A stretch of DNA of 6,543 nt from a bacterium (GTDB lineage Bacteria; NPL-UPA2; JAGMAN01): assembly GCA_023130215.1 (NCBI GenBank), contig JAGMAN010000133.1:1-6543 (forward strand), read 5' to 3'. The position numbers and the translations under genes are program-made. This document shows, piece after piece, positions 3,429 to 6,543 of this stretch (the first letter of the stretch is position 1; the number at the start of each line of letters is the position of its first letter). The notes under the pieces were generated by a model. It had not been told where the DNA came from and made no database searches. It saw only the letters and a list, made by a program, of their open reading frames with translations.

Positions 3429-5402
3429 TTGAGGATAGATGAGATTTTTGAGGCGGATGGGCCTATCGGCAAGAGTCTCCCCCATTATGAACTTCGGCCC
3501 CAGCAGGTAGAGATGGCTAAGGCGGTTGAGGAAGCTACTGGGAAGGAAAGACATCTCATCGTCGAGGCTGGCACCGGGGTGGGTAAGAGCTTAGCCTATT
3601 TAATTCCATTCATTTACTGGACAACTGATGAGGACAGGAAGGTAGTGGTCTCCACTTACACCAAGGCTTTACAGGAGCAGTTGTTTAAGAAGGATATTCC
3701 TTTTCTGAGGGAGACACTGGGAATTGATTTCAGGTTTGCCCTTTGCCTTGGAGGAGAGAATTACCTTTGTTTGCGCCGGCTCAATCAGGTCTGGCAACAT
3801 GGTCTTCTCCAGACTGGAGGGGGATCAGCGGAGCTTGAGAAGATCAGCCATTGGAAGGAGGAGACTGACACAGGGCTTCGCTTAGAACTTAGCTTTGAGC
3901 CTTCGGAGAAGGTCTGGTCACTCATTTGCCGGGAACCGGATTTGTGTCTGGGGAAGAGATGCCCTTTCCGAGATAATTGCTACTATGCTAAGGCCCGGGC
4001 CATTCAGGCCAAAGCTCACATCCTTGTGGTCAATCATCACCTCTTCTTTGCTAATTTGGCTTTGGGTGGGAAAATTCTCCCTGATTATCAAGCAGTTGTC
4101 TTTGACGAAGCACAGAATTTAGAAGAAGTAGCGGCCAGCTACTTAGGTCTTCAGGTATCCAACTCCCAGGTCAAATTCCTATTGGATACTATCTATAATC
4201 CTAAGACGGAGAAAGGGCTCATCAGTCGTTTAGGAGAGGTGGGAAATAAGTCAAGAGAAGACTTAATTGAGAAGGTAGATAAAGCAAGAAAGGCGAGCGA
4301 TATCTTCTTCTCTGATATATTAGAGCAGTTTGGCTACGATACTATGAGCAGAAGGATGAGAAAGGCAAATCTGTTAGACAATCTTCTCTCTGGTCCACTC
4401 TCTACCTTAAGCAAAGCTCTCAAGGAACTTCTCGACACGGTAAGCGATGAGGAAGATCGGCAGGAGATCAAGGGATATGCCCAGCGCTGTCACGCTCTCG
4501 GACAGGGATTAGAAAATATCATTGAACAGAAATTAGATGATTATGTCTATTGGCTGGAGATAATACCAAAGAGGAGATATACCCGCACTGCCCTTTACGG
4601 CTCCCCCCTAAATGTGGCTCCACTTCTCAAGAAATATGTTTTTGACATCACCCGGCCAGCCGTTCTCACCTCCGCTACCCTATCTGTAAACAAATCCTTC
4701 CAGTTTATTGAAGAGAGATTGGGTTTGGAAGAATCGCGGGAACTTCTCCTGGATTCCCCTTTTGATTATAGAAATCAGGTTCTTCTCTATATCTCGGATG
4801 ATCTTCCCGACCCATCTCATGAATTAGAAGCCTATCAGGAAGAGGTCATAGCGCGCATCAGCAAGATAGTGAAGATTACCTCAGGGCGAGCATTTGTGCT
4901 CTTCACCAGTTACCGGATGCTAAATAAGGCTTATGCAGGGCTACAAGGCAGTCTTAATGAGGTAAACCTACTCAGGCAAGGAGACCTTCCTCGCTGGAAG
5001 CTCTTAGAGAGTTTCAAAAAGGAAGAGAAGGCAGTGCTGTTAGGAACGAACACATTCTGGCAGGGAATCGATGTCCCGGGAAGGGCCTTAGAATGTGTGG
5101 TTATTTCCAAGCTTCCCTTTGCCGTTCCCGACAATCCCCTGGTGGAAGCTCGTTTAGAGTATTTAGCCTCTGAGGGGAAGGACCCGTTTATCAGTTACCA
5201 GGTTCCTCAAGCCATCATCATGTTCAAGCAGGGGTTCGGACGACTGATTCGCCATCGTCGTGACCTGGGAATAGTGGCCATTCTGGACCCCCGGGTGAGA
5301 AGTAGAGGTTATGGGAGAACATTTCTTAACTCTCTGCCACCCTGTCGGGAGGTAAGGAATGTAGAAGAATTGGCTCGATTGTATAGGAAGTGGAGAGGAT
5401 GA
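3429..5402 (+). CDS. dinG: DinG/XPD-family ATP-dependent DNA helicase with 4Fe-4S domain
   Basis: This superfamily 2 helicase is probably a 5'-3' DNA helicase acting on forked, R-loop or damaged DNA, as DinG does. It has 657 residues. RPQQ (about 23-26) forms the Q-like motif, and Walker A is EAGTGVGKS (46-54). Cysteines C114, C173, C178 and C184 match the iron-sulphur ligands of DinG; the x4 and x5 spacings between the last three are those of E. coli DinG. C167 is an additional nearby cysteine. VVNHHLFF (200-207) follows, and motif II reads DEAQ (226-229) where DEAH is usual. TSATL is at 414-418, FWQGIDVPG at 543-551 and QGFGRLIR at 601-608. There is no N-terminal exonuclease domain, unlike some Firmicutes DinG. 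The gene starts with TTG directly after the mnmG stop and ends with TGA overlapping the next ATG. Distinguishing DinG from YoaA-like paralogues is not possible from one sequence. Confidence 0.93.
   Translation: MRIDEIFEADGPIGKSLPHYELRPQQVEMAKAVEEATGKERHLIVEAGTGVGKSLAYLIPFIYWTTDEDRKVVVSTYTKALQEQLFKKDIPFLRETLGIDFRFALCLGGENYLCLRRLNQVWQHGLLQTGGGSAELEKISHWKEETDTGLRLELSFEPSEKVWSLICREPDLCLGKRCPFRDNCYYAKARAIQAKAHILVVNHHLFFANLALGGKILPDYQAVVFDEAQNLEEVAASYLGLQVSNSQVKFLLDTIYNPKTEKGLISRLGEVGNKSREDLIEKVDKARKASDIFFSDILEQFGYDTMSRRMRKANLLDNLLSGPLSTLSKALKELLDTVSDEEDRQEIKGYAQRCHALGQGLENIIEQKLDDYVYWLEIIPKRRYTRTALYGSPLNVAPLLKKYVFDITRPAVLTSATLSVNKSFQFIEERLGLEESRELLLDSPFDYRNQVLLYISDDLPDPSHELEAYQEEVIARISKIVKITSGRAFVLFTSYRMLNKAYAGLQGSLNEVNLLRQGDLPRWKLLESFKKEEKAVLLGTNTFWQGIDVPGRALECVVISKLPFAVPDNPLVEARLEYLASEGKDPFISYQVPQAIIMFKQGFGRLIRHRRDLGIVAILDPRVRSRGYGRTFLNSLPPCREVRNVEELARLYRKWRG
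5385..5395 (+). promoter_or_regulatory. Ribosome binding site region deciding the start of the QueG-like gene
   Basis: Purine-rich AGGAAG (5385-5390) and GGAG (5392-5395) precede ATG at 5399; AGGAAG sits 8 nt upstream. The alternative in-frame GTG at 5390 has only CGATTGTATA before it, with no Shine-Dalgarno match. ATG 5399 is therefore preferred. Confidence 0.55.
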
Positions 5403-6088
5403 AAGATGCCGAGCGAAACTATGCCCGGCTGCGAGATTTTGCCTTAAGCCAGGGGGCTTGCCTCTTTGGAGTGGCTGATGTGCGTCAGTCAAAGAAAGAT
5501 TTTCTTGACTTATCTCAAGCGGCTCTAAAGAGTCTTGATTATGGAATCTCCCTGGCCGTCAGGCTCTCGGATCCGATAATTGAGGATATTGTAGATAGAC
5601 CAACCAAACTGTATTTCTATCACTATCGGCGACTTAACGCTCTCCTTGATGAGATAGCTCTTAAGATAACGGGATTCATCCAGAAGGAAGGAGCTTATGC
5701 CTTACCTATTCCTTCTTCTCAGGTCATAGATTGGGAAAGACAGAGGGGACACCTCAGCCACAGGAAGATAGCCTTAGAGGCCGGCTTAGGATGGATGGGA
5801 AGGAATAACCTCCTGGTTAACTCAGAATTTGGCTCCCGGTTGAGGTTGGTTACTGTCCTAACCAACTTCCCTTTGATAACTGATAGCCAGAAGGAATTTG
5901 ACTGTGGAGATTGCAGGGACTGCATTCCCCTCTGTCCGGCTGGAGCAATTAAGGAGAGAAGGGAAGACTTCCAACATTTAGCTTGTTACCGAAAGCTTGA
6001 CTTCTTCAGGAAGCAATGTAACATTGGCCACCACATCTGTGGGATATGCGTCAAAGCCTGCCCGGGGAGAGTAACTCGTCTAAATTAA
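5399..6088 (+). CDS. QueG-like double 4Fe-4S cluster protein (short form)
   Basis: This is a 229-residue cytoplasmic iron-sulphur protein related to the core of epoxyqueuosine reductase QueG. Evidence is the segment AGLGWMGRNNLLV followed by FGSRLRL and TVLTNFPL (about 128-159), which parallels the QueG core AGLGWIGKNTLL. Two cysteine clusters follow: CGDCRDCIPLCP (C169, C172, C175, C179), and C196/C207 with CGICVKACP (C214, C217, C221). True QueG is over 300 residues and often carries a C-terminal HEAT-like tRNA-binding part; this protein stops 8 residues after the last cluster cysteine. The clear QueG DTAP-type catalytic aspartate context is not evident; the equivalent region reads VIDWERQRGHLSHRKIA. 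Short homologues of this type are common in anaerobes and are frequently annotated as QueG without proof. ATG 5399 overlaps the helicase TGA (ATGA), giving coupled translation. The function is unassigned: an electron-transfer or cobalamin-linked reductase is plausible. Confidence 0.85.
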   Translation: MKDAERNYARLRDFALSQGACLFGVADVRQSKKDFLDLSQAALKSLDYGISLAVRLSDPIIEDIVDRPTKLYFYHYRRLNALLDEIALKITGFIQKEGAYALPIPSSQVIDWERQRGHLSHRKIALEAGLGWMGRNNLLVNSEFGSRLRLVTVLTNFPLITDSQKEFDCGDCRDCIPLCPAGAIKERREDFQHLACYRKLDFFRKQCNIGHHICGICVKACPGRVTRLN

Positions 6089-6094
6089 ATTTAG
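6080..6094. repeat. AT-rich 15-nt palindrome over the stop codon
   Basis: CTAAATT (6080-6086) and AATTTAG (6088-6094) are exact reverse complements around a single A and include the TAA of the QueG-like gene. It is too AT-rich and loop-poor, and has no following T tract, to be a convincing terminator. Confidence 0.4.
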
Positions 6095-6131
6095 CCAATT
6101 GTCTCCCACAACTATTCTACATTTTTCCCGT

Positions 6132-6149
6132 TTTCCTGTTTCCTGTTTC
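6132..6149 (+). repeat. Short tandem TTTCCTG repeat in a pyrimidine tract
   Basis: TTTCCTG occurs twice in tandem (6132-6138 and 6139-6145) and is followed by a partial third unit TTTC (6146-6149). It sits in a C/T-rich stretch beginning at about 6121. It is a low-complexity repeat with no function that can be read from sequence, though such a tract is a hotspot for slippage. Confidence 0.6.
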
Positions 6150-6206
6150 TCCATCTCAAGAGGAGAGCTCTACCCTGGACTACACTTTTTTTTGGATTTT
6201 TTTTCT

Positions 6207-6235
6207 TTGACAGTGCACGTAGAATGTGATATAAA
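6207..6235 (+). promoter_or_regulatory. Near-consensus sigma70-type promoter
   Basis: TTGACA (6207-6212) is an exact -35 consensus. A 17-nt spacer leads to TATAAA (6230-6235), one mismatch from the -10 consensus, and TGA immediately upstream (6227-6229) gives a TGn extended -10. The expected transcription start is about 6242. The T8 runs just upstream could act as an UP-like or curved element. The first strong gene start downstream is at 6457, so the leader would be about 215 nt and would cross both dyads. The match is read directly; activity is inferred. Confidence 0.72.
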
Positions 6236-6350
6236 TCGGGATGATGTGAAAGAAGCAGAATCACTGGATAAGCTGTGGTCGGAGGAAAAGGTGTGCTTAG
6301 TCCAGCAGACAGAATTTGAACGTTTAGGACAATATGGCACAAATCAGGTT

Positions 6351-6371
6351 ATACTGCAAAATTTGCAGTAT
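6351..6371. promoter_or_regulatory. Perfect 21-bp palindrome, candidate operator
   Basis: The arm ATACTGCAAA (6351-6360) and its exact reverse complement TTTGCAGTAT (6362-6371) flank a single A at 6361. A 10-bp arm with a 1-nt centre cannot fold into an efficient RNA hairpin, but it is the expected form for a homodimeric DNA-binding protein site. Its right edge touches the position where a -35 box would sit for the TATAAT at 6392, and its left edge overlaps a TATACT hexamer (6350-6355), so binding could repress or activate the downstream gene. The binding protein is unknown. Confidence 0.7.
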
Positions 6372-6390
6372 TTCTCCAAATATTTAGGCC

Positions 6391-6409
6391 GTATAATACG
6401 TGTTATACT
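6391..6409 (+). promoter_or_regulatory. Imperfect dyad containing two possible -10 boxes
   Basis: GTATAA (6391-6396) pairs with TTATAC (6403-6408), and the centre contains the palindrome ACGT (6398-6401); only the 6397/6402 pair is mismatched, so 8 of 9 positions are symmetric. The dyad holds TATAAT (6392-6397), an exact -10 consensus, and TATACT (6404-6409) preceded by TGT, an extended -10. No good -35 lies 16-18 nt upstream of either. A proximal promoter here would start transcription about 40-55 nt before the ATG at 6457, possibly with help from a protein at the 21-bp palindrome. Confidence 0.45.
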
Positions 6410-6442
6410 TAATGGAATGAAAATAACTTTTCGTATGTCATT

Positions 6443-6449
6443 AGGAGGT
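6443..6449 (+). promoter_or_regulatory. Strong ribosome binding site
   Basis: AGGAGGT is an ideal Shine-Dalgarno sequence with a 7-nt spacer to ATG 6457. It is much the best ribosome binding site in the window and is the main reason for calling a new gene at 6457. Confidence 0.88.
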
Positions 6450-6456
6450 CTACAAA

Positions 6457-6543
6457 ATGAAAATGATTAAATTTGAAAAAATATTCGTAAATCCTAGTGC
6501 ACGAGCCCGCAACATAAAGATTATTGAACGATTATTTAGTCAA
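6457..6543 (+). CDS. Start of an AT-rich gene, possibly a SAM-dependent methyltransferase (3' end missing)
   Basis: ATG 6457 follows an ideal AGGAGGT site and opens a frame that reaches the window end (29 codons). The peptide begins MKMIKFEKIFVNPSARAR and continues with NIKIIERLFSQ. A basic N-terminus with FEK-FVN and then a helix resembles the lead-in helix of some class I SAM-dependent methyltransferases, but the diagnostic glycine-rich motif would lie beyond the window, so this is a weak guess. A second in-frame ATG is at 6463, less well spaced from the ribosome binding site. The visible part has 25 G or C in 87 bases, clearly lower than the operon before it, which could reflect a different origin. 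It has its own promoter region and palindromic candidate operator, so it is probably controlled separately from the upstream genes. Confidence 0.75.
   Translation, partial: MKMIKFEKIFVNPSARARNIKIIERLFSQ

Follow-up and report, generated by a model that had tools for sequence, protein, structure and literature searches.

A perfect 21-bp palindrome ahead of an AT-rich gene in an NPL-UPA2 genome: a candidate operator of one local accessory gene

Does a perfect palindrome ahead of a truncated, AT-rich gene mark the operator of a regulon, the switch of a single gene, or no regulatory site at all? The question is raised by the window analyzed here, one complete contig of 6,543 bp (G000:C39) from an NPL-UPA2 genome of 1.01 Mb (G000; 136 contigs, 90% completeness). 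A sequence-only reading had described the palindrome as shaped like the operator of a dimeric regulator, lying between two sets of promoter-like boxes, and had proposed a regulon should the site recur in the genome. The features are collected in Table 1.

Table 1. Features around the palindrome (window coordinates)
Feature	Position	Strand	Basis or remark
Sigma-70-like promoter, TTGACA (6207-6212)-17-TATAAA (6230-6235)	6207-6235	+	Good pair, read by eye
Promoter-like pair AGGACA-18-TATACT, weak	6326-6355	+	-10 box (6350-6355) overlaps palindrome; not above chance
Left flank AAATCAGGTT	6341-6350	+	8/10 positions shared with the flank AAATCGGATT of the G002 site
Perfect palindrome ATACTGCAAA-A-TTTGCAGTAT, putative operator core	6351-6371	.	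Sequence
Ribosome-binding site AGGAGG, 8 bp upstream of ATG	6443-6448	+	Sequence
AT-rich ORF, first 29 codons, ended by contig end	6457-6543	+	Sequence; 29% GC; no family or relative

The palindrome is exact, as the sequence-only reading had it, with 10-bp arms ATACTGCAAA (6351-6360) and TTTGCAGTAT (6362-6371) around a 1-bp centre, A at 6361. No other palindrome in the window reaches arms of 9 bp (loop up to 4), the runner-up having arms of 8. Among 20,000 first-order Markov versions generated from the 368-bp spacer, 24 (0.12%) had an arm of at least 10 bp and a centre no longer than 1, which makes the palindrome an improbable chance product of its spacer; for the whole window, the corresponding count was 27 of 1,500 versions. 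A scan for arms of at least 10 bp with loops of at most 3, over 80 kb of DNA from the phylum and the window, returned only the site at 6351-6371 and a near-copy in G002.

Upstream of the spacer lie four collinear genes, encoding an amino-acid permease with a PTS EIIA domain, MnmG, a DinG-type helicase and a short QueG-like iron-sulphur protein. The permease (1-1560) carries its EIIA (PtsN-like) domain as a C-terminal fusion, hinting at a transporter under phosphorylation control. The QueG-like gene (5390-6088, stop at 6088) encodes a 4Fe-4S protein of 232 residues that scores 65.6 bits, far under the QueG cut-off of 200. A QueG-like protein is present in seven of the nine phylum genomes, and an ORF resembling its gene lies on the Nitrospirae contig considered below (L146 3204-3902).

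Past the QueG-like gene, gene order is not conserved in G002 or G003, and the base composition changes, from 44-49% GC in the four upstream genes to 30% in 6351-6456 and 29% in the ORF that begins 85 bp after the palindrome. Given this GC drop and the differing gene order in the two relatives, the ORF fits an acquired gene, and we regard it as probably an accessory gene of horizontal origin. Its 29-residue translation (MKMIKFEKIFVNPSARARNIKIIERLFSQ) had no match in Pfam, NCBIfam, PDB or plasmids and gave chance-level matches only against phages and relatives. The fragment may resemble the N-termini of class I methyltransferases. The possibility that the palindrome sits in a coding remnant (frame 6099-6470 is open) was rejected, the frame having no homologs.

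The placement between two sets of promoter boxes stands in part. The upstream sigma-70-like pair is good, but the pair that overlaps the palindrome is at chance level (one such pair found versus 1.7 in shuffles), and a TATAAT at 6392-6397 is without a good -35 box. A block of about 50 bp around the upstream promoter (6201-6251; TTGACA-17-TATAAA with the conserved spacer TAGAATGTGATATAAAT) recurs beside unrelated genes in relatives (G002:C87:261-311, G002:C128:1335-1366 and G003:C20:576-613), the first of these copies being 92% identical over 51 bp and lying upstream of what reads as a Thi4-like gene. It may be a promoter, strong or regulated, that the group has conserved.

Within its own genome the palindrome stands alone. 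No second copy of the 21-mer was found in G000 (90% complete) at up to three mismatches, and the 19-mer core, at the same tolerance, gave six matches versus six for a reversed-pattern control. With one copy, and weaker core matches equal to the control, a genome-wide regulon in G000 is rejected, and the earlier regulon idea is not borne out.

The relatives present a different picture from the genome itself with respect to recurrence, which the sequence-only reading had set as its test: no further copy exists in G000, but copies do occur in relatives, between genes and upstream of them. The 17-bp core ACTGCAANNNTTGCAGT (ACTGCAA-N3-TTGCAGT) is exact in three of the nine phylum genomes, once each in G000, in G002, which belongs to the same genus, and in G008, of the same phylum; its reversed control has no match in the same nine. 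In the eight phylum genomes other than G000, 0.04 core sites were expected by chance and two were found (P ~8e-4). The G002 site follows a gene that reads as trpC-like and lies ~40 bp before an ATG with GGAGG. The G008 site has a PemK-like gene on one side and, on the other, a 1,037-residue gene whose longest ORF begins ~85 bp downstream of the site. Weaker core matches that we inspected were mostly in coding DNA. The operator reading is thus supported for a palindromic site before a gene, recurring in relatives at like positions, but not for a regulon.

The 1,037-residue protein of G008 (L027 10113-13226) combines SIR2_2, nSTAND_NTPase5, TPR and cold-shock-like domains, a defence-type architecture adjoining the PemK-like gene. 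The contigs of the two same-genus genomes end soon after the palindrome, by 172 bp in G000:C39 and 55 bp in G002:C28 (chance ~2% and ~1%). Because these ends cut the downstream genes, the link with accessory genes rests on G008 and on a Nitrospirae metagenome-assembled genome (MAG).

The Nitrospirae case was selected from a search through bacterial and archaeal genomes totalling 257 Gb with the 18-base pattern ATACTGCAANNNTTGCAGTAT, which returned 11 matches versus ~7 expected; the pattern is therefore not widespread, and several of the 11 are terminator-like hairpins or lie inside coding DNA. The MAG contains exactly two copies in 2 Mb (at most one mismatch). They share an orientation and are separated by 363 bp; one precedes a DUF2442 gene by ~30-40 bp, the other a TIR-like gene (weak TIR-effector match) by ~72 bp. 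Their surroundings are rich in toxin-antitoxin genes, with a zeta-toxin-like gene and BrnT/BrnA. DUF2442 was considered as a general partner, with the site as operator of its module, and rejected: the site is absent from 30 DUF2442 loci of relatives, and DUF2442 was not found in G000 or G002. Indeed, the genes behind the sites have no family in common.

Where matches in viruses, plasmids and E. coli were inspected, they proved to be terminator-like hairpins, parts of coding sequence or chance occurrences. A variant palindrome, ATACCGCAA-CAA-TTGCGGTAT, is kept between two same-strand ORFs in four related viral contigs (L134 5633, L135 11998, L136 4117 and L137 5412); the variant arms (ATACCGCAA-N3-TTGCGGTAT) belong to one virus family and have no clear relation to the site. 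Among the matches listed for the arm sequence in the literature, all were unrelated.

A flank on the left of the palindrome is shared as well. Read in one orientation, the sequence is AAATCAGGTT-ATACTGC in G000 and AAATCGGATT-ATACTGC in G002; in the same orientation, Nitrospirae copy 1 reads AAATCGGCTT-ATACTGC, agreeing with the G002 flank at 9 of 10 positions, and copy 2 reads GAATCGATAC-ATACTGC. The G008 flank, GAATTGCCAA-ACACTGC, shows a weaker likeness and points away from the downstream gene. The motif AATCR stands at a fixed distance on one side in four of the five sites, the Nitrospirae copies included, and the flank is directed at the downstream gene in four of five. A match to the G002 flank at 8 of 10 positions has a chance of ~6e-4 per orientation and one at 9 of 10 a chance of ~4e-5, values that serve as guides because the flank was spotted after the fact. 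The extended element of flank plus palindrome had no occurrence in viral contigs, plasmids, phages or E. coli. There is a small likelihood, in our view, that AATCR-N4-ATACTGCAA-N3-TTGCAGTAT is an asymmetric cis-element of mobile defence or toxin-antitoxin genes across NPL-UPA2 and Nitrospirae, read by an undescribed regulator.

How, then, might the palindrome work? We hold it about evenly balanced that it serves a dimeric regulator as the operator for one local accessory gene. As is general for operators, it is a symmetric inverted repeat upstream of a gene, and relatives keep it ahead of genes. Direct observations are the site, its single occurrence in G000 and, in relatives, its recurrence with a common flank before genes. 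Since copies precede genes in two relatives, and toxin-antitoxin or defence-type genes in a distant genome, the palindrome looks like a local switch of a single gene. A dimeric DNA-binding regulator would bind it in the promoter or leader region of the gene starting at 6457, and would either mask the -10 box at 6350-6355 or obstruct RNA polymerase arriving from 6207-6235. Given either event, the gene would be kept low until release. The site would then be a single-target switch travelling with its accessory gene, rather than the box of a genome-wide regulon. No regulator gene was seen in the window, and none could be linked to the palindrome.

A documented model for this mode of action is BrxR, a WYL-domain dimeric repressor of phage-defence islands whose R-BOX operators lie between promoter and gene (PMC9122601); membership of our site in that system is not claimed. 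The likeness is one of layout: in both, promoter and gene are separated by an inverted repeat whose arms measure ~10-11 bp. The sites are likewise few and local to an island, the two R-BOXes that are all the pEFER island has (PMC9122601) resembling the two Nitrospirae copies, and defence-type genes adjoin the site in two of the cases here. The systems differ in that R-BOX arms are imperfect with 5-bp spacers, whereas the palindrome here has perfect arms and a 1-bp centre, and in that our sites were not seen to adjoin a WYL gene, the region downstream in the window being truncated where the contig stops. A second comparison is offered by the autoregulatory operators of type II toxin-antitoxin modules. 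They too are palindromes shortly upstream of small or accessory genes, and here BrnT/BrnA and a zeta-like toxin share an island with the Nitrospirae pair, and a PemK-like gene stands beside the G008 site; however, no antitoxin gene lies directly behind the sites.

The palindrome could instead act in RNA, folding within the 5' leader of a transcript from 6207-6235 into a 9-bp hairpin that affects mRNA stability or translation. Such a leader would be ~215 nt long, a 41-nt segment folds with an energy of -11.4 kcal/mol (z -4.3), and both changes in the G008 copy preserve the stem via G-U pairs. Folding is, however, expected of any perfect palindrome, and the arm sequence itself, beyond its pairing, is conserved in five of five sites. 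The palindrome is also 70 bp from the ribosome-binding site, and the lack of any Rfam, riboswitch or known RNA match for the region counts further against an RNA element, which we consider unlikely. A specific form of RNA hairpin, the intrinsic terminator, was rejected: no terminator-like site was found in 6080-6543, and the stem is followed by TTTCTCC, so that the U tract is absent.

Alternatively, the element might mark the boundary or recombination point of a mobile cassette, sitting at the edge of inserted accessory genes without controlling them. This would suit the DUF2442 gene of the Nitrospirae MAG, which is framed by two direct copies, the non-synteny in relatives of the gene after the site, and the ends of both same-genus contigs 172 and 55 bp past the site, as at variable or mobile DNA. 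Yet no integrase or transposase was seen beside any site, a second copy is absent after the SIR2 gene in G008, and the NPL-UPA2 genomes carry single copies, which together leave a boundary mark a doubtful explanation.

That the palindrome arose by chance and is without function seems quite unlikely. Such a palindrome is expected somewhere in a 6.5-kb window with a chance of ~1.8%, many windows were presumably read, and G000 has a single copy; against this, G002 repeats the arms and shares the flank, and G008 has the same core. Least probable by far is a LexA-type SOS box, whose E. coli consensus is CTG-N10-CAG: the palindrome shares the operator symmetry and has resembling outer CTG-N9-CAG triplets as half-sites, but its spacing is one base shorter, a second site is absent from the genome, and the LexA DNA-binding domain (PF01726) had no match in G000 (90% complete) or G002.

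Should the cross-phylum element be real, acquired genes would bring their own silencing switch. If the reading as a local operator is correct, the sequence offers a bait for the protein that regulates genes acquired by a little-known uncultured phylum, possibly of defence type, and a perfect palindrome need not imply a regulon; otherwise the site is an ordinary single operator.
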